A stretch of DNA of 26,968 bases from Actinomycetes bacterium. Lineage in GTDB: Bacteria > Actinomycetota > Actinomycetes > Actinomycetales > Cellulomonadaceae. This document shows, piece after piece, positions 91 to 23,978 of the stretch (its first letter is position 1; the number at the start of each line of letters is the position of its first letter). Made by a program: the position numbers and the translations under genes. Under the pieces are notes generated by a model, which was not told the origin of the DNA, searched no databases, and was given only the letters and a program-made list of their open reading frames with translations. The stretch is from NCBI GenBank assembly GCA_023389545.1, contig JAEWEI010000160.1, forward strand, positions 1-26,968, written 5' to 3'.

Positions 91-423
91 TCAGATGTTG
101 AAGCCGAGGGCCCGCATCTGCTCGCGGCCGTCGGGCGTGATCTTCTCCGGGCCCCACGGCGGCATCCACACCCAGTTGATGCGGAAGCCGTCGACGATCC
201 CGTCGAGGGACTGCGCGGCCTGCTCCTCGATCACGTCGGTGAGCGGGCACGCCGCCGACGTGAGCGTCATGTCCACGACGGCGTTGTTCTGCTGGTCGAT
301 CGTGACCCCGTAGACGAGTCCGAGGTCGACGACGTTGATGCCCAGCTCGGGGTCGATAACGTCGCGGAGGGCCTCCTCGACGTCGGCGGCCGTCGTCGGC
401 TGGGCCGGGTTCGTGGCGGTCAT
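91..423 (-). CDS. sufT: SufT-like MIP18/DUF59 Fe-S assembly factor
   Basis: This 110-residue protein of the MIP18/DUF59 family helps iron-sulfur cluster maturation in the cytoplasm and is usually the last gene of actinobacterial suf operons. The family core is visible: a DPELGINVVDLGLVYGV segment at about residues 24-40, and the conserved cysteine (Cys59) in the TSAACPLTD motif that is thought to be the reactive or cluster-binding residue. A Trp/Pro-rich stretch (WVWMPPWGP) lies near residues 84-92. The ATG at 423 is preceded by AGGAGG and overlaps the sufU stop by 4 bp (ATGA), so the two are translationally coupled. Longer in-frame extension toward 786 lies antisense-free inside sufU and is not real. 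The family assignment is firm; the exact biochemical step of SufT is not settled in general. Confidence 0.9.
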   Translation of the reverse strand: MTATNPAQPTTAADVEEALRDVIDPELGINVVDLGLVYGVTIDQQNNAVVDMTLTSAACPLTDVIEEQAAQSLDGIVDGFRINWVWMPPWGPEKITPDGREQMRALGFNI

Positions 424-911
424 GCGTCCTCCTGAGGTGTGGTGGCGCCCGTCTTGATGAGGGCGTCCTGCAGCGCGGCCCAGCCGAGCAGCGCGCACTT
501 GATCCGTGCCGGGTACTTGGCGACGCCGGTGAACGCCGTCGCGTCTCCGAGCGCGTCCTCCGCCTCGTCGTCCAGCCCGGCGCCGCGCGCGTTCATCAGC
601 GCGCGGAACGTGCCCGCGAGGTCGTCGACCCGCCGGAGGTCGGCGCCCGTGACCAGGTCGTGCAGCACCGAGATGGAGGCCTGCGAGATGCTGCAGCCCT
701 GCCCCTCCCACGTGATCCGCTCGACTCGCGGCGAGCCGGCCACGCTGGTGTCGAGCTCGACCCGCAGGGTGACCTCGTCGCCGCACGTCGGGTTCACCTG
801 GTGCGACTCGCCAGCGGCCGCCACAGGCTCCAGCAGGCCCTTGCCGTGCGGCGCCCGCGCGTGGTCGAGGATGACCTGCTGGTACAGCTGCTCCATCGAG
901 CCCGTGCTCAT
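420..911 (-). CDS. sufU: SufU, zinc-dependent sulfurtransferase/scaffold
   Basis: SufU accepts persulfide sulfur from the cysteine desulfurase SufS and passes it to the SufBCD complex. The 163-residue length and motifs match the family: Cys43 and Asp45 in NPTCGD, Cys73 in QGCSISQAS and Cys139 in KYPARIKCALLGW, which are the expected zinc ligands and sulfur acceptor. The segment between about residues 100 and 125 is the extra SufU region that separates it from IscU. The ATG at 911 follows a strong AGGAGGGG site, 10 bp after the sufS stop (TAG, 922-924). The gene overlaps sufT by 4 bp. Met6 is a possible alternative start, but the ribosome binding site favours Met1. Confidence 0.95.
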   Translation of the reverse strand: MSTGSMEQLYQQVILDHARAPHGKGLLEPVAAAGESHQVNPTCGDEVTLRVELDTSVAGSPRVERITWEGQGCSISQASISVLHDLVTGADLRRVDDLAGTFRALMNARGAGLDDEAEDALGDATAFTGVAKYPARIKCALLGWAALQDALIKTGATTPQEDA

Positions 912-921
912 GAGTCCCCTC

Positions 922-3058
<2,137 letters not shown>

Positions 3059-3078
3059 ACTCAGGTTCTCCTCAAAGC

Positions 3079-3411
3079 TCACAGGGGCGCGTCGACATCG
3101 ACGAGCACACGCTCGCCGTCGACGGTCAGGGGGTAGACGGGGACGGGGCGCACAGCGGGCGGGCTGAGCGGCTTGCCGGTGCGCAGGTCGAACCGCGAGC
3201 CGTGCAGCCAGCACTCGACGGTGCAGCCCTCCACCTCTCCGTCCGACAGCGACACGGCCCCGTGGGAGCAGACATCGCTGATGGCGTGCAGTTGGCCGTC
3301 CTCGTCGCGCACAACGGCGACCTCGACACGCCCGGCAGCCCCCTCCAGCTCGACGCGCAGGGCGCCGGCTACAGGGACGTCGGTGGTCAGACAGGCCAGC
3401 TGGGCGCTCAT
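3079..3411 (-). CDS. Rieske-type [2Fe-2S] ferredoxin in suf operon
   Basis: This small 110-residue protein carries a complete Rieske cluster motif: Cys48-x-His50 (DVCSHG) and Cys67-x2-His70 (CWLHG). It therefore binds a [2Fe-2S] cluster with two Cys and two His ligands. Such proteins act as electron carriers, often annotated as the ferredoxin subunit of non-heme dioxygenases; here no oxygenase gene is nearby. The gene overlaps sufD by 4 bp (ATGA at 3408-3411), has its own site (ACGGAG), and is followed by sufC 20 bp later. Tight linkage suggests an electron donor for cluster assembly or repair, but this role is inferred. The same insertion is known in other Actinobacteria. Confidence 0.92.
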   Translation of the reverse strand: MSAQLACLTTDVPVAGALRVELEGAAGRVEVAVVRDEDGQLHAISDVCSHGAVSLSDGEVEGCTVECWLHGSRFDLRTGKPLSPPAVRPVPVYPLTVDGERVLVDVDAPL

Positions 3412-4697
3412 GCGCGCTCCGTCTGGGCGGCGGCCTCCGCGCCCTCCACGTGCGGCTCGGCGGCCGTGTCCAGTGCGCTCATCGAGGTGTTGAGCTCGTT
3501 CTCGATCGAGGCGATCAGGCGCTCCTCGACCTCCTCGACACCGATCTGCTGGATCAGCTCCGCGAAGAACCCGCGCACCACGAGCCGGCGCGCGTCCAGC
3601 TCGGGGATGCCGCGGGCGCGCAGGTAGAACAACTGCTCGTCGTCGAAGCGGCCGGTGGCGCTGGCATGCCCGGCGCCCTCGATCAGGCCGGTCTCGATCT
3701 CGAGGTTCGGCACCGAGTCGGCGCGGGCGCCGTCGGTGAGCACGAGGTTGCGGTTGAGCTCGTAGGTGTCGGTGCCCTCGGCCTCGGCGCGGATCAGCAC
3801 GTCGCCGACCCACACCGCATGGGCGTCCTGGCCCTGCAGCGCGCCCTTGTACGTCACGCGCGAGCGGCAGCTCGGCACGGCGTGGTCGACGAACAGCCGG
3901 TGCTCCTGGTGCTGGCCGGCGTCCGCGAAGTACACGCCGAGCATCTCGACGGACCCGTTCTCGCCGACGAACTCCGCGTCGGGCGTCACGCGCACGACGT
4001 CGCCGCCGAGCGTGACCACGATGTGCTTGACCGTGGCGTCACGGCCCAGGCGCAGCCGGTGGGACGCCGCGTGCACGGCGCCCGGCGCCCAGTCCTGCAC
4101 CGAGACGAGCGTGAGGTGCGCGCCGTCCTCGACGACGACCTCGACGGTCTCGGTGAGCAGCGCCTGCCCGACGTGGTCGAGCACGACGACCGACTCGCTG
4201 AGCTCCTGCGCGTGCACCAGCAGGTGCGCGCCGGTGGGCTCGAGCGGGTCCTGCCCCTCGACGCCCTCCACGCGGATCGAGGTGGCGCTCGTGGCGACTG
4301 CCTGCTTCGGGATCGTCACGACCGTGGCCCGCGGGAACGAGGCCCAGGCGGCGACGGCGGCGCGGTCGCCGGGGCGCCCGGCCGCGCCGAGGCGCGGGTC
4401 GTCACGGTCGACGATCTCGACGGTGACCTCGGGCGCCTCGACGACTGTGGTGATCACGCCGTGGCCCGGGAGCACGCCATCGGTGTCGGCGCCGAACAGC
4501 GGGGCGATCCGGTCCACGGGCGCGAAGCGCCACTCCTCCTCGCGGCCCGTGGGCACGGGGAAGTCGGCGACGTCGAACGACGTGAGCCGCTCGGCGCGCG
4601 AGCCCTGCGGCACGACGCCGTGGCTGTGCGCGCCGTCGGCGGTGGCCTGGCTGTGGTCGGTCGACAGCCCGGCGGTGTCCTGTGTGGTGGTCGACAT
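3408..4697 (-). CDS. sufD: SufD, scaffold subunit of SufBCD
   Basis: SufD is the beta-helical partner of SufB in the SufBC2D scaffold and is needed for iron entry. The 429-residue product shows the typical N-terminal element with GREEEWRFAP near residues 51-60, a long beta-helix core, and the C-terminal helical block that binds SufC (GIPELDARRLVVRGFFAELIQ, about 366-386). The last 30 or so residues are an acidic, Ala-rich tail with no family match. Its start overlaps the sufB stop by one base (TGATG), giving tight coupling; a GGAAGGGG site sits inside the sufB end. It overlaps the Rieske gene by 4 bp at its 3' end. Confidence 0.95.
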   Translation of the reverse strand: MSTTTQDTAGLSTDHSQATADGAHSHGVVPQGSRAERLTSFDVADFPVPTGREEEWRFAPVDRIAPLFGADTDGVLPGHGVITTVVEAPEVTVEIVDRDDPRLGAAGRPGDRAAVAAWASFPRATVVTIPKQAVATSATSIRVEGVEGQDPLEPTGAHLLVHAQELSESVVVLDHVGQALLTETVEVVVEDGAHLTLVSVQDWAPGAVHAASHRLRLGRDATVKHIVVTLGGDVVRVTPDAEFVGENGSVEMLGVYFADAGQHQEHRLFVDHAVPSCRSRVTYKGALQGQDAHAVWVGDVLIRAEAEGTDTYELNRNLVLTDGARADSVPNLEIETGLIEGAGHASATGRFDDEQLFYLRARGIPELDARRLVVRGFFAELIQQIGVEEVEERLIASIENELNTSMSALDTAAEPHVEGAEAAAQTERA

Positions 4698-6139
4698 CAG
4701 CCGACGGCCCCTTCCATCTGCAGCTCGATCAGGCGGTTCAGCTCGAGGGCGTACTCCATGGGCAGCTCACGCGCGATCGGCTCGACGAAGCCGCGCACGA
4801 TCATGGCCATGGCCTCGGTCTCGGTCATCCCGCGGGACATCAGGTAGAACAGCTGGTCCTCGCTCACCCGCGAGACAGTCGCCTCGTGGCCCATCGACAC
4901 GTCGTCCTCGCGGACGTCGACGTACGGGTAGGTGTCGGAGCGGGAGATCTGGTCGACGAGCAGCGCGTCGCACAGCACGTTCGAGGCGGAGTGCTCGGCG
5001 CCCTCGAGCACCTGCACGAGGCCGCGGTAGGACGTGCGCCCACCGCCGCGCGCCACCGACTTGGAGACGATCGACGACGACGTGTGCGGGGCGGCGTGCA
5101 CCATCTTCGCGCCCGCGTCCTGGTGCTGGCCCTCGCCGGCGAACGCGATCGACAGCGTCTCGCCGCGGGCGTGCTCGCCCATCAGGTAGATCGCCGGGTA
5201 CTTCATGGTGACCTTGGAGCCGATGTTGCCGTCGACCCACTCCATCGTCGCGCCCTCGGCAGCGGTCGCCCGCTTGGTCACGAGGTTGTACACGTTGTTC
5301 GACCAGTTCTGGATCGTCGTGTACCGCACGCGGGCGTTCTTCTTCACGATGATCTCGACCACGGCCGAGTGCAGCGAGTCGGACGAGTACACCGGGGCCG
5401 TGCAGCCCTCGACGTAGTGCACGTACGAGCCCTCGTCCGCGATGATCAGCGTCCGCTCGAACTGGCCCATGTTCTCCGTGTTGATCCGGAAGTAGGCCTG
5501 CAGCGGGATCTCGACGTGCACGCCCGGCGGCACGTAGACGAACGATCCGCCCGACCACACGGCCGTGTTGAGCGACGCGAACTTGTTGTCGCCCGGGGGG
5601 ATCACCGAGCCGAAGTACTGCTCGAAGATCTCCGGGTGCTCGCGCAGGCCCGTGTCGGTGTCGAGGAAGATGACGCCCTGCTCCTCGAGCTCCTCCTGGA
5701 TCTGGTGGTACACGACCTCGGACTCGTACTGCGCGGCGACGCCGGCCACGAGCCGCTGCTTCTCCGCCTCCGGGATGCCCAGCCGGTCGTACGTGCTCTT
5801 GATCTCGTCCGGCAGCTCCTCCCAGGTGGTGGCCTGCTTCTCGGTCGAGCGCACGAAGTACTTGATGTTGTCGAAGTCGATGCCCGTGAGGTCGGAGCCC
5901 CACCACGGCATGGGCTTCTTCTCGAACAGGCGCAGCGACTTCAGACGCGTCTTCAGCATCCACTCGGGCTCGTTCTTGAGCGCGGAGATGTTGCGCACGA
6001 CGGCCTCGGAGAGCCCTCGCTGGGCGATGGCGCCCGCGTCGTCCTTGTCGTGCCACCCGTAGGTGTAGTTCCCGATCGAGGCGATCGCCTCGTCCTGGGT
6101 CAACGGGGTGCTAGCAGCGCTCTCAGTGGGTGCGCTCAT
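4697..6139 (-). CDS. sufB: SufB, cluster-building scaffold of SufBCD
   Basis: SufB is the scaffold subunit on which new Fe-S clusters form. The 480-residue length is usual. Family features visible include the N-terminal [10 protein letters not shown] segment, the core stretch ending VEGCTAPVY, and Cys390 in NVLCDALLV, the position equivalent to the essential cysteine of E. coli SufB (CDSMLIG). The C-terminal block with [18 protein letters not shown] binds SufC. The ATG at 6139 lies one base after the sufR stop (TGACATG) and has a GGAAGGA site inside the sufR end. SufB is therefore translated from the sufR transcript and falls under SufR control. Confidence 0.97.
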
Positions 6140-6140
6140 G

Positions 6141-6911
6141 TCATCGTCCTTCCGCGGGGGCAGGGTTCGTCATCGTCGGGATGTTCGTGGTGCAGACGTG
6201 GCCGCCCCCGGCCAGCGTCGCGAGGCGTTGCACGTGGACACCCAGCATCCGCGAGAAGGCCTGGGCCTCGGCCTCGCAGAGCTGGGGAAACTCTTGGGCG
6301 ACCTGCTGCACCGGGCAGTGGCCCTGGCAGAGCTGGATCGCGGCGGCGCCGGGGACTGGCCGCGCGGTGGCCGCGTACCCGTCGTCGGCCAGTGCGTCCG
6401 CGAGGGCGCGGACACGGGACACGGGGTCCTCCCCCGCGGCCTCCACGGCCGCGGCGTGGCGGGCCTCGAGCTCGCGCACCCGCCGCTCGGCGAACTCCTC
6501 CACCGCGTCGGGCCCGGCGACCTCCGAGAGGAAGCGGAGCGCCTCCGCCGCGATGCCCGAGTAGGCGTGCGGCTGCGCCGCCTGACCATGGTTCGTCACG
6601 ACGTACCTGCGGGCGGGCCGGCCGCGCCGCGCGGGCGCACCGCCCTGCGCCTCGTGGACCGCGATCTGGCCGTTGCCCTCGAGCACCGCCAGGTGGCGGC
6701 GGATCGCCGCCGTGGTCAGGTCGAGCTCCGCTGCCAGCTCGGCCGCGGAGATCGGGCCGTCGGCGGTGACGATCTTCAGCACCCGCTCCCGGGTGCCCGC
6801 CTCATGGTCTGCGACCTCCTCGTCTGCGGCGCGCCACACCGAGACGGCGCGGGCGCGAGCAGAGGCCCGCACGGACGCGTGCGTTCGCGAGACGGGCATG
6901 ACGGCGCTCAT
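6141..6911 (-). CDS. sufR: SufR, Fe-S-sensing repressor of the suf operon
   Basis: SufR is a winged-helix (ArsR/DeoR-like) repressor that binds an Fe-S cluster and represses suf when clusters are plentiful. With the ATG at 6911 the product has 256 residues. The DNA-binding domain covers about 40-108 ([21 protein letters not shown] as helix-turn-helix; RRGRPARRY as wing). A C-terminal cysteine set, Cys195, Cys199, Cys212 and Cys240 (C-x3-C-x12-C-x27-C), provides the expected cluster ligands. The start was chosen because GGAGG lies 7 nt upstream; an earlier ATG at 6998 would put the operator inside the gene. The first 30 residues are Arg/Ala-rich and may be disordered. SufR is the first gene of the operon it controls. 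Confidence 0.94.
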
Positions 6912-6955
6912 CCGCACCTCCGTTCGATGGGCTGCTGCCAGAAGCCAGGCTGGCC

Positions 6956-6983
6956 TTGATATTGCCAACATCCTTGTTGCCAA
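6956..6983 (-). promoter_or_regulatory. Promoter of the sufR-led suf operon
   Basis: On the minus strand TTGGCA (6978-6983) and TATCAA (6956-6961) are separated by 16 bp, a fair match to a housekeeping -35/-10 pair. Transcription would begin near 6949, leaving a leader of about 38 nt before the sufR ATG with its GGAGG. Both boxes lie inside the inverted repeat at 6958-6987, so a bound repressor would block RNA polymerase directly. Confidence 0.6.
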
Positions 6984-6987
6984 TATC
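6958..6987. promoter_or_regulatory. SufR operator, CAAC-N6-GTTG palindrome
   Basis: The two 13-bp arms GATATTGCCAACA (6958-6970) and TGTTGCCAATATC (6975-6987) are inverted repeats with 12 of 13 positions matching and a 4-bp spacer. The core is CAAC (6966-6969), six bases, GTTG (6976-6979), the core described for SufR binding sites in cyanobacteria. It stands out in this GC-rich sequence by its AT-rich flanks. It overlaps the suf promoter and lies about 80 bp before the divergent ABC gene. Confidence 0.8.
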
Positions 6988-7000
6988 GTTCCGTGCAAGC

Positions 7001-12474: not shown

Positions 12475-14160
<1,686 letters not shown>

Positions 14161-14168
14161 GGGCTTCC

Positions 14169-14196
14169 ACTCTACCGGAGAGATCGTCGCCGTCGA
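14169..14196 (-). promoter_or_regulatory. pyrG promoter, probably leaderless
   Basis: On the minus strand TCGACG (14191-14196) and TAGAGT (14169-14174) are separated by 16 bp. The -10 box ends 8 nt before the GTG at 14160, so the transcript would start at or one base before the start codon. This gives pyrG and the Nudix gene a promoter separate from the upstream wall/septum genes. Confidence 0.6.
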
Positions 14197-14218
14197 CCCT
14201 CGCACAGGGTGAGTCACA

Positions 14219-14272
14219 GCACTCTCGTGCGCTGAACCCGCCGCAGATCACTCAGCCGCGCGGTGACGGCTG
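14219..14272 (-). terminator. Weak hairpins between GT4 gene and pyrG
   Basis: A 6-bp stem (14253-14258 with 14267-14272) overlaps the end of the glycosyltransferase gene, and a 4-bp stem-loop GCAC-TCTC-GTGC sits at 14219-14230. Either could reduce read-through into pyrG; neither is strong and no T-tract is present. Confidence 0.3.
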
Positions 14273-15370
14273 CCCGTTGTAGGCGGCACGGAGCTGCGCC
14301 ACGACGTCTGAGACGCTGGGCAGGCCTGCGGCCCGTTCGCGGGACGCCGCCGCGAGACTCGTGCGGCGCGACGGGTCGTCGAGGACCCCCGTGAGGGCCC
14401 GGGCGAACGCGTCAGCGTCGGCCACCGGGACTAGCACGGCGGCGTCGCCGGTCACCTCCCGGGTGCCGCCTGCGTCGGTGGCCACCAGAGGGGCGCCGAG
14501 CTGGAGCGCCTCCTGCACCGCGATGGGCTGCCCTTCCCATACGGCGGTGCTGGCCACCACGTCGGCTGCCGCCATGAGGTCGGCCACGTCGTCGCGACGC
14601 CCGAGGAGCCGCACCGGGAGCCCCTCGGCGTCGATGCGGGCTTGCAGCTCGCCCCTCAACGGCCCGTCCCCGGCAACCGCCCACAGCAGCTCCTGCCCGG
14701 GCGCCGGTGTGACGCGCGCCGCGGCATCGGCGAGCAGCCCCAGGCCCTTCTGCGGCGCGAGGCGCGCCACCGTCACCACGAGGAGCCCGTCGGCCGTGAG
14801 GCCGAGGCCGCCCCGCACGGCGGCGCGGTCCTGGCTCGGCTCGGGCCGTGAGGGGGCGGGCACCAGCGCACGCTGCGCGTGCCGGGCGCCACGGGCCCGC
14901 GCACGGGCCACGAGATCCCCCGAGACGCCGAGCACGACGTCCGCCCCGCGCGCCACGACCCGCTCCAGCACCGCGGAGACGCCGCGGATCGCGCGTCCGC
15001 CGACGGGGAGGTTGTGCAAGGTCACGACGACGCGAGGACGCGACCGGGAGGGCAGGGACTGGACGGCGAGCACGGCGAGGGCGCCCGCGCGCAGCCCATG
15101 GGCGTGCACCACGTCAGCTCCGGCGGACAGGACGCGCAGGCGGCGCACCGCCTGGATGTCAGCGGCTCGCGGCCGGTCCGCGATCGGCGTCGAGTGGAAG
15201 ACGGCCCGACCGTCGGGCGGGGCGACCACACCGGCCAGCTCGGGCGGACCGGCCACATGCACGGTGTCAGAAGCGGCGCCCGACCCGGGCTCGCTCAAGG
15301 CGCTCGTGACTTGGGCGACGTGCCGCGCCACGCCCCCCGCGCTCGATCCCAGCACCTGCAAGATCCTCAT
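14252..15370 (-). CDS. GT4-family glycosyltransferase
   Basis: This 372-residue GT-B fold, retaining glycosyltransferase transfers a sugar from a nucleotide donor. The N-terminal acceptor domain starts with RILQVLGSSAGGVARHV, with a DVVHAHGLRAG segment at 86-96 and a VTLHNLP segment at 116-122. The C-terminal donor domain has ARLAPQKGL (202-210), GDGPLRGEL (234-242), and the E-x7-E motif at Glu279/Glu287 (EGQPIAVQE). The ATG at 15370 has a GAGAGGG site and overlaps the MurJ-like gene by 4 bp. A longer frame to 15805 is antisense shadow. Donor and acceptor are unknown; the position after a phosphoglycosyltransferase and a flippase suggests a lipid-linked acceptor. Confidence 0.9.
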   Translation of the reverse strand: MRILQVLGSSAGGVARHVAQVTSALSEPGSGAASDTVHVAGPPELAGVVAPPDGRAVFHSTPIADRPRAADIQAVRRLRVLSAGADVVHAHGLRAGALAVLAVQSLPSRSRPRVVVTLHNLPVGGRAIRGVSAVLERVVARGADVVLGVSGDLVARARARGARHAQRALVPAPSRPEPSQDRAAVRGGLGLTADGLLVVTVARLAPQKGLGLLADAAARVTPAPGQELLWAVAGDGPLRGELQARIDAEGLPVRLLGRRDDVADLMAAADVVASTAVWEGQPIAVQEALQLGAPLVATDAGGTREVTGDAAVLVPVADADAFARALTGVLDDPSRRTSLAAASRERAAGLPSVSDVVAQLRAAYNGQPSPRG

Positions 15371-17028
15371 GACGGGTCCCTCTCGTCGGCCTGCGCGGTC
15401 AGCGGCCGAGCCCCTCGGTCCAGCCCTAGGACGCCGCGCAGCGTCCCACGGTCCACGGCCACGACTGCCGCGACGACCAGCAGCACCGCGAGAGCGCCGC
15501 CACCGGCCCCGGCGCCCACGGCGGGCGCCCAGCCATGGCCGAAGACGGCCATGGCCTCGGTGGTGGTCCACCGGCCGGCGACGGCCCCTGCCAGCACGCC
15601 AGCGCCGAGCACCGCCACCGTGCGCGGGAGGCCATGCAGCGCACCCGCCCCGCCGACTCGGCGCAACGCGGACAGCAACGCCACGCCGGCCACAGTCATC
15701 CCGATCGTGTTGGCCATCCCGAGCGCGGTCAGCATGCGGGCCTCGTCGCCTGTGGGGACCCAGAGCCAGGCGAGGAGCGCTGCGGCGACGGCGACCGCTG
15801 ACCACCCGCAGGCCGCAGCCACCACGGCGGCACGGCCGTGCTCCAGGGCGTACAGCGCGCGGGAGATGTGGAACAGCAGCGCGAAGCCCACCAGGCCAGG
15901 GGCCATCCAGGTCAGCGCGGGCCCCATCGCGAGGACCAGTGCGGACTCCTCAGGCTGGCCCTGGACCGAGACGAACAGCTCGGCGACAGCGGGCGCCGCC
16001 GCGATCAGCGCGGCCACCCCGACACCAGCGGCGACGAGCACGGCGCGGGTGGTCAGCGCCGCCATCTCCGCGAAGCCCTCGCGGGCCGGCCGGGTGGCGC
16101 GGTCGGCAAGCCGCGGGAACGTGCTCGTCGCCAGTGGGACCGCCAGGACGGCGTACGGGAGCAGGTAGACGGCCTGGGCGTACAGGAAGACGGTCCACGC
16201 CCGCCCGCCGGCCAGCAGCAGCATCACCACAGTCGACGCCTGCTGGGCGACCAGGGCGCCGATCCCCGCGAACGCGAGGCTGCGCACCCGTGCGGCCACC
16301 CCCGGCGGGAAGCTCAACGTCGGCCGGAACCGCACTCCCGAGCGCAGCACAGGAATGAGCAGCGGCAGGCTCATCGCCGCGACCCCCGCCGTGGTGCCCC
16401 ATGCCAGCCACCCCAGGGCGCCGGGCGGCAGCGCCGACGGGTCGTTGACCTGCTGGTCCGCGAGCTGCCCGTACACGCTGTACGCGACGATCACCACCGC
16501 GGTGGACAGCGCCGGGGCGAGCGCCGGCCAGAAGAACCGCCGTTGGGCCTGCAGCAGGCCCGACAACACGACGCCGAAGCCGTAGAGCGGGATCTGCACG
16601 GCGAAGACGAGGATGAAGTAGCGGATCAGCTCCGGCTCGGCGGAGTCCTCGCCGAGGCTCGCGAACAGCCGCGCGAGCGGGTCCGCGGCGAGGGCCAGCA
16701 CGACGGCCAGCGGCACGAGCACCAGCAGCGTCCAGCCCAGCAGCGCGGAGGAGATGCGGTTGACCTCGGCCCGGTCGCCGCGCCGCAAGGGCCCGGTGAC
16801 CACCGGGATCAGCGCACCCGCCAGCGCGCCGCCCGCGGCCACCTCGAACAGCACGTTCGGCAGCGTGTTCGCCGTGTTGTACGCCCCGCCGATCAGGCCG
16901 GAGCCGACGGCGCCAGCCTGGACGAACCACCGGCCGAAGCCGAGCAGGCGGCTGAGCACCGTGATCGCGGCGATCATCGCCGCCGCGCTGGCGAGGCCGC
17001 CGAGCGCCCGCCTGGTCGACGTGCTCAC
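15367..17028 (-). CDS. MurJ/MviN-family lipid flippase
   Basis: This 553-residue membrane protein of the MurJ (MOP exporter) family is predicted to flip a polyprenyl-linked sugar across the membrane. About 14 hydrophobic segments are present. The N-terminal motif SRLLGFGRWF (about 26-35) keeps the conserved arginines, followed by AYNTANTLPNVLFEVAAGGAL. Compared with E. coli MurJ, the Asp39 and Arg52 positions appear as glycine and phenylalanine/glutamate; actinobacterial MviN proteins share a similar pattern, so this does not prove a new substrate. It starts with GTG and overlaps its upstream neighbour by 4 bp (GTGA). It lacks the long C-terminal pseudokinase region of the mycobacterial MurJ. 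It may be a second, dedicated flippase. Confidence 0.88.
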   Translation of the reverse strand: MSTSTRRALGGLASAAAMIAAITVLSRLLGFGRWFVQAGAVGSGLIGGAYNTANTLPNVLFEVAAGGALAGALIPVVTGPLRRGDRAEVNRISSALLGWTLLVLVPLAVVLALAADPLARLFASLGEDSAEPELIRYFILVFAVQIPLYGFGVVLSGLLQAQRRFFWPALAPALSTAVVIVAYSVYGQLADQQVNDPSALPPGALGWLAWGTTAGVAAMSLPLLIPVLRSGVRFRPTLSFPPGVAARVRSLAFAGIGALVAQQASTVVMLLLAGGRAWTVFLYAQAVYLLPYAVLAVPLATSTFPRLADRATRPAREGFAEMAALTTRAVLVAAGVGVAALIAAAPAVAELFVSVQGQPEESALVLAMGPALTWMAPGLVGFALLFHISRALYALEHGRAAVVAAACGWSAVAVAAALLAWLWVPTGDEARMLTALGMANTIGMTVAGVALLSALRRVGGAGALHGLPRTVAVLGAGVLAGAVAGRWTTTEAMAVFGHGWAPAVGAGAGGGALAVLLVVAAVVAVDRGTLRGVLGLDRGARPLTAQADERDPS

Positions 17029-17921
17029 GCGGAGCGGCTCTCGTCCCCAGCAGCCGCAACGGGGCGCCTGCCCCAGGCGTCGAGCTCACGCAGCACCGGC
17101 GTCCGGGCGATGACCTGGGTGAAGCTGACCCGCTCGCTGGCCACCGTGAGGCCGACGGCGCCCGCGAGCAGCGCGAGCCGCACCCGGCGGGGCGCGTCGA
17201 GCACCACAGCGGCGCCCAGCATCGCGCCCAGGGCGTTCGCGCCACCGTCTCCGAGCATGTCGCGCTCGGCGAGGTCGGCCTCGAGGCCGGCGGAGGCGAC
17301 GCCGACGACTGCCGCCGCCGTCCCCGCGCCCTCTCCCCCGGCGACAGCCATGGGCGCCGCAGCGAGGGCGACCGCCTTGAGCGCCCGTCCCGGTCGCAGG
17401 TCCAGCAGGTTCACCAAGTTCGCTGTGGCGGCGATCAGCGCGCCGGAAGCCGCCACGTCGGCTCCCCAGCCGAGGGCTGAGCGCCGCGAGCCGTCGGCCG
17501 CGCGCAGCGGAGTCGCCACGGCCGCGGCGGCCAGCGCGCCCGCGCCGATGCCCAGCACCTTGAGCGCGCCGGTCGTGGGGTGGCCCGACCGCAGCGCGCC
17601 CAGGTGGCCGCGCAGGCCCTTCGCGCGTCGGTCCTGATCCTCGGCGAGGTCGTCGATCAGCCCGAATGTGGCGCCGGCGGCGGTCGCGAGGCCCGCTGCG
17701 ACCGCGCCACGGGGCGACGAGGCGCCCACGACGCCCCCCGCCAGCAGGCCGGCGGCCGCGGCGGGCCCGGAGAGGAGGCTGACCGGCTCACCGCGGTGGT
17801 TCACCCGTGTCCAGCGACGCGAGCCGCCAGGCGGCTCCTCATCGAGGGCTCCGCGCACCGCGAGGGTGGCGCCGGCCGCCGTCAAGGCCGCCGTGAGCCG
17901 TTGCCCCATCCCGACGCTCAT
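17025..17921 (-). CDS. MraY/WecA-like phosphoglycosyltransferase homologue
   Basis: This 298-residue, Ala-rich multi-span membrane protein resembles polyprenyl-phosphate HexNAc-1-phosphate transferases. Family landmarks are TRVNHRGEPVSLLSGP (about 38-53, like the TRVN...GG entry motif), FGLIDD with Asp90/Asp91, KGLRGHLGAL (101-110), ANLVNLLDLRPGRALK with Asn168, Asn171 and Asp174, and GDGGANALG with Asp225. It loses the second half of the usual NLxDGLDGL motif (DLRPG instead), and I see no HHH loop, ending instead with SERVSFTQVIARTPVLRELDAWGRR. It could use an unusual substrate or be a non-catalytic relative. The gene overlaps both neighbours by 4 bp. Confidence 0.7.
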   Translation of the reverse strand: MSVGMGQRLTAALTAAGATLAVRGALDEEPPGGSRRWTRVNHRGEPVSLLSGPAAAAGLLAGGVVGASSPRGAVAAGLATAAGATFGLIDDLAEDQDRRAKGLRGHLGALRSGHPTTGALKVLGIGAGALAAAAVATPLRAADGSRRSALGWGADVAASGALIAATANLVNLLDLRPGRALKAVALAAAPMAVAGGEGAGTAAAVVGVASAGLEADLAERDMLGDGGANALGAMLGAAVVLDAPRRVRLALLAGAVGLTVASERVSFTQVIARTPVLRELDAWGRRPVAAAGDESRSA

Positions 17922-18958
17922 CCGGCGGCGCCGTCGGGCACGTCGGGGTCGGTCACGCCGTCCGGGGGCGTGACGGCCTGCGGCGTGCGGTCGACCGGCG
18001 CGAGCGCGACCTTGGTGGGCACCGTGGTCTCACCCTCGGCGAAGCCGTAGTGGCCGTTCGTGCCGCCGATTCGCGCGTTGAGCGCCAGCGGCACCGTGAC
18101 CTGTCCCGCGACCTCATCGGCGCCCGAGACCGTCGTGATCGTCCCCTCGAGCGCGTCGTCGGCGAGCACCAGGCTCGTCAGGCTCGTCGTGGACGCGCCC
18201 GCGTCGGCCAGGACCGCGCCCTCGGAGCCGTCCTGGGCCGCCGTCAGCACCGCGAGCTGCGCCGATGCCACGGCGGCGGCGTCCTCGTCGTCCACGGCCT
18301 TGTCCTTGTCGTCCCCCTGCGGCGTCAGCACGACGATCGCGTCGGCCGGGGCCGTGACGGAGTCGGCGCCGGTGAGCAGCGGCTTCTCGTCGACGCTCAG
18401 CAGCTCGAGCAGCACAGTGGCCGGCTCAGAGAACTCGTTCGGAGCCTGCGGGTCGGCGCCGGTGAGGGCCTGCACCAGCGCGATCGCCAACTCGGCGTCG
18501 GTGCCGGCGTCCTCCGCCGGGACCGGGTCGAGGTACTCCACGAGGGTGCCGACCAGCGCCTGGCGGAAGCTGCGCAGGCCGGGGTCGGTCCAGGCCTCGG
18601 TGAGGGTGACGACGCCACTGACCTGCGCGCCGGCGGCCGTGAGCTGGGTCTCGATGCCGGAGACCTCGTCCTCGGTGACCTCGCCCAGCGCGATGACCGC
18701 GACGCGGCGCTCGGCCAGCGCCCCGGCCAGGAGTTGGGGCGCCGCGGCCTCGATGTACGTCGTCGCGTTCTGCAGGTCGGCGTTGGCCACGTCGGCCTCC
18801 GCGCGCAGGGTCTCCTTCTCCGCGCGGAGCGCCTGCACCTGCCCTGTGAGGGTGTCGCCGATGGTCTCCTTGAGCGGCCCGGCGCCGAGCGCGATCCCGA
18901 CGGCGAGCGCCAGGAACACCGAGATGAGCGAGACGATGTGGTAGCGGAAGTCGATCAC
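17918..18958 (-). CDS. steB: SteB/MctB-family secreted-side membrane protein
   Basis: This 346-residue protein has a single N-terminal membrane segment (about 8-28) in the highly conserved start IDFRYHIVSLISVFLALAVG, then a coiled coil (about 30-70) and a long extracytoplasmic domain. That start defines the family of mycobacterial MctB (Rv1698, first proposed as a copper transporter) and corynebacterial SteB, which acts with SteA in cell separation. The C-terminal tail is Pro/Asp-rich (TPPDGVTDPDVPDG). The GTG at 18958 follows steA by 52 bp with only a weak GAGAG site. It overlaps the phosphoglycosyltransferase-like gene by 4 bp, linking cell separation to that module. Confidence 0.88.
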   Translation of the reverse strand: MIDFRYHIVSLISVFLALAVGIALGAGPLKETIGDTLTGQVQALRAEKETLRAEADVANADLQNATTYIEAAAPQLLAGALAERRVAVIALGEVTEDEVSGIETQLTAAGAQVSGVVTLTEAWTDPGLRSFRQALVGTLVEYLDPVPAEDAGTDAELAIALVQALTGADPQAPNEFSEPATVLLELLSVDEKPLLTGADSVTAPADAIVVLTPQGDDKDKAVDDEDAAAVASAQLAVLTAAQDGSEGAVLADAGASTTSLTSLVLADDALEGTITTVSGADEVAGQVTVPLALNARIGGTNGHYGFAEGETTVPTKVALAPVDRTPQAVTPPDGVTDPDVPDGAAG

Positions 18959-19010: not shown

Positions 19011-20198
19011 TCATGACGTCGAGCCGAAGATCGAGCGGAACCACGAGAAAAGGTCGTCGAGCCGGGCGCCGGTGAGGCCGAGCAGCGTCTGCCCCGCCTC
19101 CGTGGAGGCGAGCGCCACACCGAGCGCGAGCAGCCCGGCCAGGACGAGCAGCAGGAGCTGCACGTTGGAGATGCGCTGACGGTACAGCCGCGAGACGCCC
19201 TTGGCGTCGACCAGCTTGCTGCCGACCCGCAGGCGGGTGAGGAACGTCGACGCCATGCCCGAGCGTCCCTTGTCGAGGAACTCGACGAGGGTGGCGTGGG
19301 TGCCGACCGCGACGATCAGCTCGGCGCCCTTGTCGTCGGCCAGGAGCATCGCGACATCCTCGCTGGTGCCCGTGGCGGGGAACACCACGTGCGGGACGCC
19401 GAGCTGCTCGACCCGGGCCAGCCCAGGCGCCCGGCCGTCGCGGTAGGCGTGCACCACGACCTCGGCGCCGCACCGGAGCGCGCGGTCGGAGACCGAGTCC
19501 ATGTCGCCAACGATGAGGTCGGGAGTCCAGCCCGCCTCGAGGATCGCGTCCGCGCCGCCGTCCACCCCGATGAGCACCGGCCGGTACTCGCGGATGTAGG
19601 GCCGCAGCGTGACCAGGTCCTCCTTGTAGTGGTAGCCGCGCACGACGATGAGCACCTGCCTGCCGTCGATGACTGTCGACACGTCCGGCACGCCGACGCC
19701 GTCGAGGAGCAGGTCCCGCTCCCGGCGCAGGTAGTCCATCGTGTTGGCCGCGAACGACTCGAGCTGAACCGACAGCCCGGCGCGCGCCTCCGCCATCGCG
19801 GCCTCGACCGACTCGGCCGTCTGCACGACGCCCTCCGCCACCAGCGTCGTGCCGTCGTGCACCGCGCCGTCGACGATGCGCAGCACGTGCCCGTCGGGGA
19901 TGGTCATGACGTCCGGGCCGAGGTCGTCGATCAGCGGGATGCCCGCCTCGACGAGGATCTCGGGGCCCAGGTTGGGGTACCTGCCGGACGTCGAGCGCGC
20001 GGCGTTGAGGACGGCGGCCGGCTGGCAGGCGACAAGCGCCTCGGCGGACACACGGTCGATGTCGAGATGGTCGATGACCGCGACGTCACCAGGGCGCAGC
20101 CGCTTGGTCAGGGCCTTCGTCCGGGGGTCGACACGGGCGGGGCCGACGATCCCGGGCTCGTCGGGAAGGGGGGCGCGCTTGCGCAGCGAGACTCTCAT
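19011..20198 (-). CDS. steA: SteA, thiamine-pyrophosphokinase-like septal protein
   Basis: This 395-residue protein has an N-terminal domain (about 30-175), a thiamine pyrophosphokinase-like domain with GVDGGADAILEAG (211-223) and DLIVGDMDSVSD (227-238), and one C-terminal membrane segment at about 346-365 followed by a short tail. This architecture matches corynebacterial SteA and mycobacterial Rv1697, which work with SteB in control of peptidoglycan hydrolysis during daughter cell separation. The TPK-like site keeps its acidic GDxDS motif, so it may bind a nucleotide or pyrophosphate compound; no thiamine gene is near. The ATG at 20198 lies 6 bp after the recN stop. Confidence 0.88.
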   Translation of the reverse strand: MRVSLRKRAPLPDEPGIVGPARVDPRTKALTKRLRPGDVAVIDHLDIDRVSAEALVACQPAAVLNAARSTSGRYPNLGPEILVEAGIPLIDDLGPDVMTIPDGHVLRIVDGAVHDGTTLVAEGVVQTAESVEAAMAEARAGLSVQLESFAANTMDYLRRERDLLLDGVGVPDVSTVIDGRQVLIVVRGYHYKEDLVTLRPYIREYRPVLIGVDGGADAILEAGWTPDLIVGDMDSVSDRALRCGAEVVVHAYRDGRAPGLARVEQLGVPHVVFPATGTSEDVAMLLADDKGAELIVAVGTHATLVEFLDKGRSGMASTFLTRLRVGSKLVDAKGVSRLYRQRISNVQLLLLVLAGLLALGVALASTEAGQTLLGLTGARLDDLFSWFRSIFGSTS

Positions 20199-20204
20199 CG
20201 GGGC

Positions 20205-21947
20205 TCATCGTCCCATGCCGGAGAGGCTGAGGAGCTCGGCTGCGTGCGCCCGTGCAGCGTCCGAGTCCTCCTGGCCGGAGAGCATCCGCGCGAGCTCGCG
20301 CACCCGCTCCTCCTCCGTGACGTTCCGGACGCCGGACTCGGTCACCACGTCATCCCCGTCGCCGGTGGACTTCGTCACGACGAGGTGCTGGTCGGCGAAG
20401 GCCGCCACCTGGGCGAGGTGCGTCACCACGAGCACCTGTCCGCCGCGCCCGAGGGCCGCCAGGCGGCGGCCCACCTCGATGGCGGCCTTGCCGCCGACCC
20501 CGGCGTCGACCTCGTCGAAGACGAAGGTGGCGGGCCGGTGTGCCCCCGATCCGGGGGCGGTGGCGAGCGCGACCTCGATCGCGAGCATCACGCGCGAGAG
20601 CTCCCCGCCCGACGCGCCCTTGCCGAGCGGGCGTGCCGGGGCGCCCGCGTGCGGGACCAGGAGCATCTCCACGACGTCGGCGCCGTGCGGCCCGGGCTCG
20701 TCGGCCGGCTCGACCTTGACCACGAGCCGCGCGCCGCCCATCGCGAGCCCTGCCAGCTCGGCCGTCACGGCCTCCGCGAGCGATTCGGCGGCCTGCCCGC
20801 GGGCGGCGCTGATGGACTTCCCGAGGGACTCGAGCGTCGCCGTGAGCTCGTCCCGTCGCGCGGCGAGGCCCGCCAGGCGCTCGTCCCCGCCGTCCAGGTC
20901 GAGGAGCCTGCGGCTCGCCGTGTCCGCCCAGTCGAGCACCTCGGCGATGTCGGCCCCGTAGCTCCGGGTCAGCGAGGCCAGCTCGGCGCGGCGCCGCTGG
21001 GCGTGGTCCAGCCGTGCGGGGTCGGCCTGCAGGCCGTCCAGGTAGGAGGACAGCTCGGCGGCCGCGTCGGCCAGCAGGAACCCCGCCTCGGCCACCCGCG
21101 TCGCGAGCCCGGCCAGCGTCGGGTCGTGCTCCCCCGCCTGCTCGAGCGAGCGTCGTGCGTGCTCGACGAGCGTCGCCACTGCCTGCTCCTCGCCAAGGGT
21201 CGCGCTGTCGTCGCCCACCAGCGTCGCGTGGGCGCCGCTCGCCGCGACGCGCAGGTCCTCCGTGTGCGCGAGCCGCTCGATCTCGGCGGCGAGGGCGATG
21301 TCCTCGCCGGGCTGGGGGGCGACACGCTCCACCTCGCCGAGCCCGAGCCGCAGCAGCTCGGCCTCCCGGGCGCGGTCGTGCGTGCGCTCGGTCAGCTCGC
21401 GCAGCTCGGCGACGACCGCTTGGCGCTGGGTCCAGCTCTCGCGGTAGGACGCGAGCAGGTCCTGGTGCGCCGGGCCCGCGTAGGCGTCCAGGGCCTCGCG
21501 CTGGCGCGCCGGCGACCGCAGCCGGGCCTGGTCGGCCTGCCCGTGGACTGTCACGAGCTCGTCGGCGATCTCTGCCAGGACGGCCTGCGGCACCGAGCGC
21601 CCGCCCAGGAAGGCCCGCGAGCGCCCTGGCGAGTCGGGGGTCGCGGCGCCGACGGTGCGCACCAGCACGAGCGACCCGTCGTCATCGAGCTCGGCGCCGG
21701 CCTCGAGCGCACGGGCCAGCACTGAGGAGCCGGCCGGCAGCAGCACGCGGCCCTCCACTGCGGCCGACGAGCCGCCCGTGCGCACCGTGGCGGGGTCGGC
21801 CTTGCCGCCGAGCAGCAGGTTGAGCCCCGTGAGCACCATCGTCTTGCCGGCGCCCGTCTCGCCCGTCAGCACTGTGAGGCCTGGCCGCAGCGGGACGTGG
21901 GCTCGGCCGATCACGCCCAGGTCCTGGATCCGGATCTCCTCGAGCAC
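20205..21947 (-). CDS. recN: RecN DNA repair ATPase
   Basis: RecN is an SMC-like cytoplasmic ATPase that acts early in double-strand break repair. The 580-residue product has Walker A GETGAGKT at 29-36, two long coiled-coil arms rich in Ala, Glu, Leu and Arg, the signature KGASGGELSR (443-452), and Walker B FVFDEVDAGVGG (475-486) followed by the THLAQVAAFAD motif. The start is GTG at 21947, 3 bp after the NAD kinase stop, with a GGGAGG site inside the NAD kinase end. The nadK-recN-steA order is common in Actinobacteria. Confidence 0.96.
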   Translation of the reverse strand: MLEEIRIQDLGVIGRAHVPLRPGLTVLTGETGAGKTMVLTGLNLLLGGKADPATVRTGGSSAAVEGRVLLPAGSSVLARALEAGAELDDDGSLVLVRTVGAATPDSPGRSRAFLGGRSVPQAVLAEIADELVTVHGQADQARLRSPARQREALDAYAGPAHQDLLASYRESWTQRQAVVAELRELTERTHDRAREAELLRLGLGEVERVAPQPGEDIALAAEIERLAHTEDLRVAASGAHATLVGDDSATLGEEQAVATLVEHARRSLEQAGEHDPTLAGLATRVAEAGFLLADAAAELSSYLDGLQADPARLDHAQRRRAELASLTRSYGADIAEVLDWADTASRRLLDLDGGDERLAGLAARRDELTATLESLGKSISAARGQAAESLAEAVTAELAGLAMGGARLVVKVEPADEPGPHGADVVEMLLVPHAGAPARPLGKGASGGELSRVMLAIEVALATAPGSGAHRPATFVFDEVDAGVGGKAAIEVGRRLAALGRGGQVLVVTHLAQVAAFADQHLVVTKSTGDGDDVVTESGVRNVTEEERVRELARMLSGQEDSDAARAHAAELLSLSGMGR

Positions 21948-21950
21948 CGC

Positions 21951-22844
21951 TCAGCCCTCCCGTCCGATGGATGTCCCGTACGGCCGGAGCGCCTCGGCCC
22001 CGCCGCGCCAGCCCTCCACGGGCAGGCCGAACTTACTGACCAGCCGGTCGGTGAAGGGCGCGTGCGTGAGCCGGGCCAACCGCACAGGAATGCGACTCGC
22101 CCCCACCTCCACGCGCGAGCCGACCGGCACCTCGATGCGCCGCCGGCCGTCGCAGCTCAGGATCGCGCTCGCCGGAGAGCGGTTCATCAGCTCGACGGCC
22201 AGGACGCTCGACGGGCCGACCACCAGCGGCCGGGAGAACAACGCATGCGCCGACAAGGGCACCAAGATCATCCCGGCGACGTCCGGCCACACCACCGGCC
22301 CGCCCGCGGAGAACGCATGCGCCGTCGAGCCCGTCGAGGTGGCCATCACCACCCCGTCGCAGCCGAACGAGGACAGCGGCCGCCCGTCGACCTCGACGAC
22401 CACCTCGATCATCCGCGCCGGGTCGCTCTTCTCGAGCGCGGCCTCGTTGAGCGCCCACCCTGTCGCCGGCTCGGCGTCGCCCGGCAGGTGGACCGTGACG
22501 TCGAGCGTGCCGCGCTCCTCCACCTCGTAGTCGCCGTCCGCGAGCCGGCGCACCGCCTCCGCGATGTTCTCCCGCTCGCTCTCCGCCAGGAAGCCGACAT
22601 GTCCCAGGTTCACGCCGAGCAGCGGCACGCCCGTCCCCCGCGTCAGCTCAGCCGCGCGCAGGATCGTGCCGTCACCACCGAGCACGATCGCCATCTCCAG
22701 GTCGCCCAGGGGCGCCAGGTCACCGTCGTCGAGGGCGAGCACCGGGGTCATCCCCACCGCCTCAAGCGCCCGCAGGGTCTCCTGCGTCGCGGCGACCGCC
22801 TCCTCGCGACCGCTGTGGGTCACCACCAGCGCACGACGTGTCAC
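21951..22844 (-). CDS. nadK: NAD kinase
   Basis: NAD kinase phosphorylates NAD to NADP in the cytoplasm. With the GTG at 22844 the product has 297 residues. The catalytic GGDGT lies at 56-60, the NE pair at 133-134 and the conserved substrate loop CDGVVMATSTGSTAHAFSAGGP at 162-183. The start was chosen because a strong GGAGG lies upstream and the codon overlaps the tlyA stop by 4 bp (GTGA); the longer frame to 22940 would overlap tlyA for about 100 bp. It is cotranscribed with tlyA and recN, as in mycobacteria (ppnK). Confidence 0.95.
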   Translation of the reverse strand: MTRRALVVTHSGREEAVAATQETLRALEAVGMTPVLALDDGDLAPLGDLEMAIVLGGDGTILRAAELTRGTGVPLLGVNLGHVGFLAESERENIAEAVRRLADGDYEVEERGTLDVTVHLPGDAEPATGWALNEAALEKSDPARMIEVVVEVDGRPLSSFGCDGVVMATSTGSTAHAFSAGGPVVWPDVAGMILVPLSAHALFSRPLVVGPSSVLAVELMNRSPASAILSCDGRRRIEVPVGSRVEVGASRIPVRLARLTHAPFTDRLVSKFGLPVEGWRGGAEALRPYGTSIGREG

Positions 22845-23671
22845 GTGTCTCCACCTCCGGTCGCAGGCGCACGGACCGCGCGCTCCACCTGCTCGACGAT
22901 CTCCTCGTCCGAGGAAGGCGTCCCCGCACGACGCAGCCACAAGAAGTACTCCACGTTGCCGCTGGGGCCCGGCAGCGGGCTGCGCGCCACGCCCGCGACG
23001 ACGAGGCCGAGCCCCACGGCCGCACGCGCGACCGAGAGCACCGCCTCGACCCGCAGCGCCGGAGAGCGCACGACGCCACCGGAGCCCAACCGCTCCCTGC
23101 CGACCTCGAACTGCGGCTTGACCATGACGACGAGGTCGGCGTCGGGGCGCGCCACCGCCGCCAGGGCGGGCAGGACAAGCGTGAGGGAGATGAACGACAG
23201 GTCGGCGACCACCAACTGGGGCGCGGGCTCCACGTCGCCAGCGGCGAGGTGGCGCACGTTCACGCCTTCCCGCACCTCGACCCGGGGATCCTCGCGCAGG
23301 GCCTGCACGATCTGGTCATGGCCGACGTCGACTGCGACCACCCGCGCGGCGCCGCGACGCAGCAGCACGTCGGTGAAGCCGCCAGTGCTGGCCCCCGCGT
23401 CCAGGCACACCCGCCCCTCGACCAGCAAGCCGGCGCCCGCCCACACGTCGAGGGCGCCCAGCAGCTTGTGCGCGGCCCGCGACGCGTACTCGGGCTCGGC
23501 GGCCTGCGAGGCCTCGACCTCGACTCGTTGCCCGTCCTGGACGGCCGTCGCGCTGCGGCGGGCCACCGCTCCGTCGACGAGCACACGGCCGGAGGCGATG
23601 AGCTCGGCGGCGTGGCGACGCGAACGGGCCACGCCACGGCGCACGAGCTCACTGTCCAGGCGGGAGCTCAT
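22841..23671 (-). CDS. tlyA: TlyA-type rRNA 2'-O-methyltransferase
   Basis: TlyA methylates ribose 2'-OH groups of rRNA (C1409 of 16S and, in the long form, C1920 of 23S), which affects capreomycin sensitivity. The 276-residue product has an N-terminal S4 RNA-binding domain (about 3-62), so it is of the long type II form. A FtsJ-like methyltransferase follows, with the SAM site DAGASTGGFTD (91-101) and the K-D-K-E set: Lys69, Asp157, Lys185 and Glu241. The ATG at 23671 has a TGAGG site and lies 7 bp after the small upstream gene. A longer frame to 23974 is out of phase with that gene and is rejected. Confidence 0.94.
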   Translation of the reverse strand: MSSRLDSELVRRGVARSRRHAAELIASGRVLVDGAVARRSATAVQDGQRVEVEASQAAEPEYASRAAHKLLGALDVWAGAGLLVEGRVCLDAGASTGGFTDVLLRRGAARVVAVDVGHDQIVQALREDPRVEVREGVNVRHLAAGDVEPAPQLVVADLSFISLTLVLPALAAVARPDADLVVMVKPQFEVGRERLGSGGVVRSPALRVEAVLSVARAAVGLGLVVAGVARSPLPGPSGNVEYFLWLRRAGTPSSDEEIVEQVERAVRAPATGGGDT

Positions 23672-23678
23672 CTCGACC

Positions 23679-23978
23679 TCAGCCCTCGGTGTCCGCGAGC
23701 CGGGCCTGCAGCGCGGAGTGGACGCCCTCGAAGGCGTCGACGTGAGCGGGCAGTGGCAACGCGGACAAGCCGGCCAGCCCGGCGAGCGCCGCGTCCACCC
23801 GCGCGTCGCCCGCGTCGTCGTCGGGCAGGCCCGACGCACCCGGGTCGCGAGGGACGCCAGAGGCGCCTGGCATGCCGGGGGCGCCCGGCATGCCAGGGGC
23901 GCGGGGCACACCAAGCACGCGAGGCGACCCGGCCACCGGAGGCACACCCTCGGCGCGGGCCTCGTCCACGTCACTCAC
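23679..23978 (-). CDS. Small protein with collagen-like repeats
   Basis: This 99-residue protein sits where mycobacteria have the small gene Rv1693 between the phosphatase and tlyA. Its C-terminal part (about 59-95, DARVDAALAGLAGL...PAHVDAFEGVHSALQARL) looks like a short helical hairpin typical of that small family. Its N-terminal half is unusual: residues 22-52 are made of Gly-x-Pro triplets (GVP, GMP, GAP, GMP, GVP, GLP). The GTG start at 23978 has GGGGAG nearby. Two copies of an 18-nt repeat unit (from 23869 and 23887) encode PGMPGA. Function is unknown; cotranscribed with tlyA, 7 bp apart. Confidence 0.75.
   Translation of the reverse strand: MSDVDEARAEGVPPVAGSPRVLGVPRAPGMPGAPGMPGASGVPRDPGASGLPDDDAGDARVDAALAGLAGLSALPLPAHVDAFEGVHSALQARLADTEG
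23869..23904 (-). repeat. 18-nt tandem repeat coding for PGMPGA units
   Basis: GGCATGCC(G/A)GGGGCGC begins at 23869 and again at 23887, an 18-nt period that preserves reading frame. Looser copies on both sides code for the other Gly-x-Pro triplets. This looks like a slippage-prone, length-variable stretch within the small gene. Confidence 0.6.

Follow-up and report, generated by a model that had tools for sequence, protein, structure and literature searches.

Results

The steAB locus of the window

The window analysed here is a stretch of 26,968 nucleotides from an Actinomycetes bacterium of the Cellulomonadaceae (GenBank assembly GCA_023389545.1, contig JAEWEI010000160.1). On its minus strand, downstream of steA, lie four consecutive genes: steB, a PNPT-like gene (pnpt), a MurJ-like gene (murJ2) and a GT4 glycosyltransferase gene (gt4; Table 1). 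The initial annotation had described 4-bp overlaps at all three junctions between these four, and steA directly upstream, and the coordinates bear this out: ATGA at 17918-17921 joins steB to pnpt, GTGA at 17025-17028 joins pnpt to murJ2, ATGA at 15367-15370 joins murJ2 to gt4, and steB starts 52 bp downstream of steA. For gt4 the open reading frame list gives a start at 15805, but the ATG at 15370 agrees with both the overlap and the family match. The closest named database protein is from Cellulomonas cellasea (92%, P0002), and a NUDIX gene lies, like pyrG, downstream of the module.

Table 1. Genes and motif of the steAB locus and its borders, with positions in the window
Feature	Position	Strand	Evidence
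steA, 395 aa, membrane-anchored, TPK-like domain	19011..20198	-	NF040608, E 2.4e-153, 510.4 bits (cut-off 150); PF12555; solved homologues 9hmy, 9hmz
SteA GDMDS motif, residues 231-235, TPK-like pocket	19494..19508	-	SteA comparison
steB (MctB family), GTG start	17918..18958	-	PF11382, E 5e-75, 253.4 bits (cut-off 25.6)
PNPT-like (putative) enzyme, 298 aa, ATGA overlap with steB	17025..17921	-	family profile, fold model
MurJ2, MurJ-like (putative) flippase, 553 aa, GTGA overlap with pnpt	15367..17028	-	PF03023, 133.7 bits (cut-off 27.4)
GT4 glycosyltransferase, 372 aa, optional member, ATGA overlap with murJ2	14252..15370	-	PF13692, 94 bits; PF00534, 93 bits
recN, conserved upstream border	20205..21947	-	TIGR00634, 499.5 bits
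pyrG (CTP synthase), conserved downstream border	12475..14217	-	TIGR00337, 768.5 bits

Linkage from close relatives to the phylum

A contig scan for close relatives matched 231 stretches, 173 of them encoding relatives, and the best 80 loci were compared. These loci, mostly from Cellulomonadaceae and Promicromonosporaceae, repeat the order recN-steA-steB-pnpt-murJ2(-gt4)-pyrG, except where a contig end truncates the locus and in two loci whose sorted matches stand in a different order. Spacing in the 80-locus set is tight: a possible start lies at most 30 bp from the upstream stop in 77/77 measurable loci for pnpt to murJ2 and in 75/76 for steB to pnpt, and 69 and 48 loci, respectively, allow an overlap of exactly 4 bp.

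Beyond the close relatives, genome samples were drawn evenly but were small. The order sample (149 genomes) contained 89 genomes with both PNPT and SteA, none with PNPT only, 23 with SteA only and 37 with neither, and all 89 PNPT genes start within 3 kb of steA. The corresponding counts in the class sample (197 genomes) were 73, 8, 39 and 77. For the phylum sample (149 genomes) a broader profile gave 66 genomes with a strong PNPT match (at least 169 bits, the next match having 46 bits) and 70 with SteA over its cut-off, divided into 64 with both, 2 with PNPT only, 6 with SteA only and 77 with neither. PNPT matches below 47 bits were attributed to other PNPTs or to fragments and not counted (39 of the 105 matched genomes have only these, including a contig-end fragment in G059), and 19 of 89 genomes with a SteA match fell under the SteA cut-off and were left out of the count. 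In this sample, 58 of the 59 same-contig PNPT-SteA pairs are no more than 12 kb apart, and five more pairs lie on different contigs. Among 14 control genomes, SteA exceeded the cut-off only in C. glutamicum.

The first PNPT profile matched 68 genomes of the phylum sample, and 60 of their loci were read; steA or steB is present in the stretch in 53 of them. Gene content and order vary (steB-pnpt-murJ2-gt4, steB-gt2-pnpt, steB-murJ2-gt4-ap770-pnpt) and the region is internally inverted in L116 and L165, but the association is kept, and recN and pyrG border the module in most complete loci. The overlap arrangement is thus beyond chance, since close spacing recurs and the linkage is phylum-wide.

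Joint occurrence of PNPT and MurJ2

We examined 137 class loci, picked by PNPT or SteA and not by MurJ2, of which 122 had both borders. These comprise 102 loci with PNPT and MurJ2, 18 with neither, 2 with PNPT only and none with MurJ2 only. The close-relative set, itself fetched by PNPT, supplies 74 of the 122; the 48 outside it divide into 28, 18, 2 and 0. Both PNPT-only loci are Streptomyces-like (this and the label mycobacteria-like denote inferred kinship) and also lack SteA. A tree of RecN from 61 loci that all carry SteA required 12 changes of PNPT state, and in six independent pairs on that tree (starred branches) MurJ2 was concordant with PNPT in 6/6 (p 0.031), with gt4 following the PNPT state less strongly (median p 0.125). 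The RecN tree does not separate gain from loss, and we word PNPT absence as loss because deep lineages have PNPT. Within the class, PNPT and MurJ2 thus behave as a single unit.

The PNPT-like protein

The window protein had no Pfam or NCBIfam match at E 0.01, and at this threshold PF00953 matched 24 of 43 members of its family. The family profile (A2) nevertheless reached five MraY structure sequences (E 4e-5 to 1.4e-3), and the predicted model of the protein has the MraY/DPAGT1 fold, in agreement with the initial MraY/WecA-like assignment. Residues D90, D91, N171, D174 and D225 are invariant in 43/43 divergent PNPTs; we assume the catalytic role commonly given in this superfamily to the Asp pair, the loop Asn/Asp and the GD-x-G aspartate. 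In the motif NLLDLRPGRALK, Pro177 stands where we would place the second Asp of the classical DGxDG. The C-terminal histidine motif, which we take to be a mark of MraY proper, was not found: in the 43 PNPTs no invariant or nearly invariant His follows H106, the sole invariant His. By fold, profile and acidic residues, the protein is a predicted member of the PNPT superfamily (MraY/WecA/DPAGT1) with putative sugar-1-phosphate transferase activity. Plasmids gave no match to the PNPT; one match came from Bacillota, named Syntrophomonadaceae.

MurJ2 and the canonical lipid II genes

MurJ2 scores 142.6 bits against the TIGR01695 equivalog, below the cut-off of 235.55, and stands apart from canonical MurJ in a tree. 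Of the cavity arginines of MurJ (E. coli numbering), R18 and R24 are kept in 49/49 module MurJs, and R52 and R270 in 0/49; canonical actinobacterial MurJs have R52 in 6/51 and R270 in 10/51. The module had been proposed to run parallel to MraY-MurG-MurJ, and the nearest relative genome used (G001, sharing 22% of sampled 31-letter words with the window) does carry separate genes of this kind: a mraY-like PF00953 gene on contig C8 at a distance of 3 kb from murG, a further PF00953 protein on C12, and two MurJs, the canonical one on C11 (245.8 bits) and that of the module on C13 (136.7 bits). L116 comes from a 1.8-Mb genome (G132) in which a single MurJ was found; its gene is located within the steAB-pnpt region in inverted orientation, and the protein clusters, on a long branch, with the canonical MurJs.

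Glycosyltransferases and other optional members

GT4 is present in 21 of the 80 close-relative loci. Among 20 PNPT-bearing loci selected out of the 89 in the order sample, murJ2 occurs in all 20 and GT4 in 16, two of the four without GT4 showing no pyrG in the stretch, and 58 of the 102 class loci with PNPT and MurJ2 lack GT4 at 150 bits, most of the 102 being close relatives of the window. A four-gene core including GT4 was therefore rejected, because GT4 is optional across all three sets. In the 60 phylum loci, GT2 occurs in 38, twice on the other strand (e.g. L140:7350-8126), the assignment resting on PF00535 in four proteins tested and on a profile for the remainder, and MurJ2 occurs in 18, often with GT4 and a protein of about 725 aa, 'ap770'.

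This ap770 (L129:6282-8423, L133:5875-8061 and 19 more loci; alignment A4) occurs in deep Actinomycetota modules, where it is often beside pnpt, and some Actinomycetes have it as well (L276, L281, L283). It had no firm Pfam family, PF16347 matching 5 of 21 members (best E 0.0033), and its profile weakly matches phosphoglycerate-mutase/sulfatase-like proteins (best E 0.0064); a possible identity is a transferase of the alkaline-phosphatase superfamily with the glycan as its substrate. The module of L133 also contains a PMT_2-type glycosyltransferase (4504-5766, PF13231).

SteA conservation and the presence of PNPT

The motif GDxDS, which we take to be TPK/pyrophosphokinase-like (the TPK match of SteA itself came from a family search), is kept in 92/92 SteAs of PNPT-bearing loci (44/44 class, 48/48 deep). 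It is absent from 18 of 20 SteAs of PNPT-less loci, being kept in 1/15 of the main group, 0/3 mycobacteria-like and 1/2 probable recent-loss loci. The solved sequences read GDPDQ in 9hmy and GNPTG in 9hmz, which we take to be from M. tuberculosis and C. glutamicum, respectively, as matched via chain counts in PMC12977500. Stretches around VVRGY and LDKGR are altered in the 15 PNPT-less and the 3 mycobacteria-like SteAs and not in L265 and L266.

Median identity to the window SteA is 74.7% in the 44 class loci with PNPT versus 44.6% in the 15 without, as against 57.6 and 51.6 for RecN of the same loci. The three mycobacteria-like loci have 46.6 (SteA) and 51.3 (RecN), L265 and L266 have 67.5 and 53.7, and the deep PNPT-bearing loci (55 listed, 48 with SteA) have 53.4% and 38.0%. 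The constraint on the SteA sequence tracks the PNPT/MurJ2 unit, whereas that on RecN hardly does. Divergence of SteA was rejected as a sure mark of PNPT absence, in view of the 67-68% identity of L265 and L266 and the high NF040608 bits of family f26.

Lineages lacking PNPT or SteA

Of the six SteA-only genomes in the phylum sample, four belong to f26, termed mycobacteria-like partly for its very long MurJ frames, and two have a contig ending in steB (L221, L222). Contig ends just past steA or steB likewise cut six of the 23 in the order sample (L213-L218); in the remaining 17, SteA scores 193-343 bits, versus 448-527 where PNPT is present. Ten of these 17 loci were read: L211 ends early, and the nine complete enough (L203-L210, L212) have steA-steB without pnpt and murJ2. 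In L206, L207 and L208, the NF040608 match of SteA begins only at residue 108 or 133, and the N-terminal domain may be missing. From the 39 SteA-only class genomes eleven loci were read. Two, L265 and L266, lack murJ2 and a full pnpt and keep gt4 and a well-conserved SteA; a 22-bit pnpt trace in L265 suggests that PNPT was lost there recently. The eight PNPT-only class genomes are seven of the Streptomyces-like f20 and one fragment. In f20, L127, L171 and L282 read recN-pnpt-gt4, with no steA, steB or murJ2 in the stretch, and in most of them the PNPT match ends early.

Elsewhere in the window, 91-6998 holds a suf iron-sulfur set (two SufBD-core proteins, a class V aminotransferase and an FeS assembly protein) with a helix-turn-helix regulator, and 21951-23974, upstream of recN, holds an NAD kinase and an S4/FtsJ (TlyA-like) methyltransferase.

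Discussion

Comparison of genomes yielded three observations: the linkage of steAB to pnpt and murJ2, their joint occurrence, and a constraint on SteA where PNPT is present. PNPT-less SteAs usually lack GDxDS and are often diverged, which argues for a coupling, and we lean towards the reading that the operon joins the cell-separation complex SteAB with a dedicated pathway of lipid-linked glycan synthesis, whose product, septal site and activity we infer. PNPT, judged by its fold and invariant acidic residues, would load polyprenyl phosphate with a sugar-1-phosphate taken from a nucleotide sugar; GT4 where present, or GT2 in deeper lineages, would add a sugar; and MurJ2, given its family and its co-occurrence with PNPT in the class, would flip the product. 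SteA, whose TPK-like pocket is strongly conserved where PNPT exists, could bind a nucleotide or nucleotide sugar of the PNPT pathway, and its state could pass through SteB to septal peptidoglycan hydrolysis. The sugar, the lipid, the flipping and the sensing are thus putative steps. The intact pocket would then serve a metabolite of the glycan pathway, and a derived SteA would have remained wherever the pathway was lost. More tentatively, and in our estimate somewhat short of probable, SteAB may ancestrally have controlled a lipid-linked glycan pathway spanning the phylum, in which a working TPK-like nucleotide/pyrophosphate site of SteA reads or acts on a PNPT-pathway metabolite and so licenses septal hydrolysis; mycobacterial and corynebacterial SteA would then be derived, having lost both the pathway and GDxDS.

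Several observations weigh against a coupling of this kind. The functions of PNPT, MurJ2 and GT4 are predictions, read from sequence and a model. The mycobacteria-like loci L219, L220 and L273 lack PNPT, though SteAB works in mycobacteria and corynebacteria, the SteAs of f26 score high with NF040608 despite having no PNPT, and the Streptomyces-like f20 keeps PNPT without SteA. MurJ2 is confined to a minority of the phylum loci. Two PNPT-less SteAs (L265, L270) retain GDxDS, and because of them the motif agrees with PNPT in 5.4 of 6 independent pairs on average, never in the opposite sense, with a median p of 0.0625; the loci counted for the motif were, moreover, chosen by PNPT state or SteA score. 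A concentration of the lost SteA residues in the C-terminal domain as a whole was unsupported (p 0.79). The cavity arginines R52 and R270, missing from MurJ2, say nothing about its substrate; their absence was considered as a sign of another substrate and rejected, because most canonical actinobacterial MurJs are without them as well.

The observations can be read in other ways. PNPT, MurJ2 and the glycosyltransferases could make an ordinary, envelope-wide secondary wall polymer or linkage unit, with SteAB merely co-expressed for division and neither contacting nor sensing the pathway. Sets of a PNPT and a flippase are typical of wall-polymer pathways, the glycosyltransferases differ by lineage (GT4, GT2 or none) as they do for surface glycans, and the Streptomyces-like loci retain PNPT and GT4 without SteAB. 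Co-expression alone, however, predicts neither the loss of the SteA motif and the divergence of SteA where PNPT is missing nor the near one-to-one occurrence of PNPT and SteA in the phylum sample, and we regard this explanation as rather unlikely.

It is also conceivable that PNPT and MurJ2 are regulatory membrane proteins that bind SteAB, or the canonical MraY and MurJ, and tune the septal supply of lipid II without a glycan of their own. The many class loci with PNPT and MurJ2 that lack GT4, and the score of MurJ2 far under the MurJ equivalog cut-off, fit such a role; the invariance of the catalytic-type residues D90, D91, D174 and D225 in all divergent PNPTs, and the company of a GT2 or GT4 in most deep lineages, speak against it and make it improbable. 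A mere neighbourhood effect, with recN and pyrG holding together a region whose inner genes share no function, we disfavour most strongly of all and give very little credence: the two genes do flank the set in most complete loci, but the internal order changes, up to the inversions in L116 and L165, PNPT and MurJ2 switch together in every independent pair while recN and steA stay, and the constraint that follows PNPT falls on SteA and hardly on RecN.

The interpretation given in the initial annotation holds in part. It had centred on steB; the steAB linkage is indeed conserved, and it is steA, not only steB, that is tied to PNPT. The proposed lipid II-type trio agrees with the fold and acidic residues of PNPT and with a MurJ-like protein distinct from canonical MurJ, but its third member does not hold as a core component, as GT4 is optional and GT2 takes its place in many deep lineages. 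Conservation and co-loss hold for the linkage and, in the class, for PNPT with MurJ2, while gene order is reshuffled. Counter-examples that go part of the way towards two refuting conditions of the annotation exist on both sides: steAB without PNPT or MurJ2 at the locus in f26, f55, f63, f71, f88 and others, where SteA usually lacks GDxDS, and Streptomyces-like genomes with PNPT and no SteA.

These data suggest that a wall-sugar pathway and the separation of daughter cells are linked in a way not recognised before. SteAB controls that separation, and the part of PMC12977500 available describes its cytosolic ligand as unidentified; the gene linkage points to a concrete candidate class of ligand and to a pathway. 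It also indicates which lineages keep the intact system, which the studied model species may lack. The linkage makes a second septal lipid-linked glycan a testable idea. It further draws attention to a MurJ paralogue alongside the canonical lipid II genes, and to the PNPTs as a large family whose members frequently slip past curated models.

The closest known system is SteA-SteB-RipA of Corynebacterium and Mycobacterium (PMC6705760, PMC12977500, PMC12338722, each represented here by part of its text), in which SteB is reported to activate a septal peptidoglycan hydrolase. The SteAB work found in our literature search was all in mycobacteria and corynebacteria. According to the portions available, GDP or UDP stabilises the SteA of C. 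glutamicum, with inconclusive results for M. tuberculosis, the conserved pocket of SteA is of a phosphonucleotide type and predicted to bind carbohydrate, and SteAB has been mapped across Actinobacteria and some Clostridia (all PMC12977500); in mycobacteria, a homologue of SteA serves cell separation without SteB (PMC12338722). None of those portions of the three papers places a PNPT or a second MurJ next to steAB, and among the open-licence papers searched we recognised none linking either to SteAB, in keeping with the initial impression that such a link was undescribed. The module shares with SteA-SteB-RipA the SteA and SteB families and the TPK-like pocket and membrane anchor of SteA, and mycobacteria-like loci share recN upstream and pyrG downstream with the window locus. 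They differ in that the solved SteAs lack GDxDS and the mycobacteria-like loci lack PNPT and MurJ2, whereas the window locus has all three. With MraY-MurG-MurJ the module shares the predicted kinds of activity (a PNPT, a glycosyltransferase and a MOP-type flippase), but its genes are separate, as G001 illustrates, and its putative extender is a GT4 or GT2, not MurG. In contrast to the WecA/TagO-type (PF00953) enzymes and DPAGT1, the window PNPT has no Pfam match of its own. MglA, the MurG substitute of Kitasatospora, is likewise an additional lipid-carrier enzyme of actinobacteria that runs alongside the canonical pathway; in the available part of its description, it replaces MurG, is not a PNPT and is not placed beside steAB (PMC8092295).

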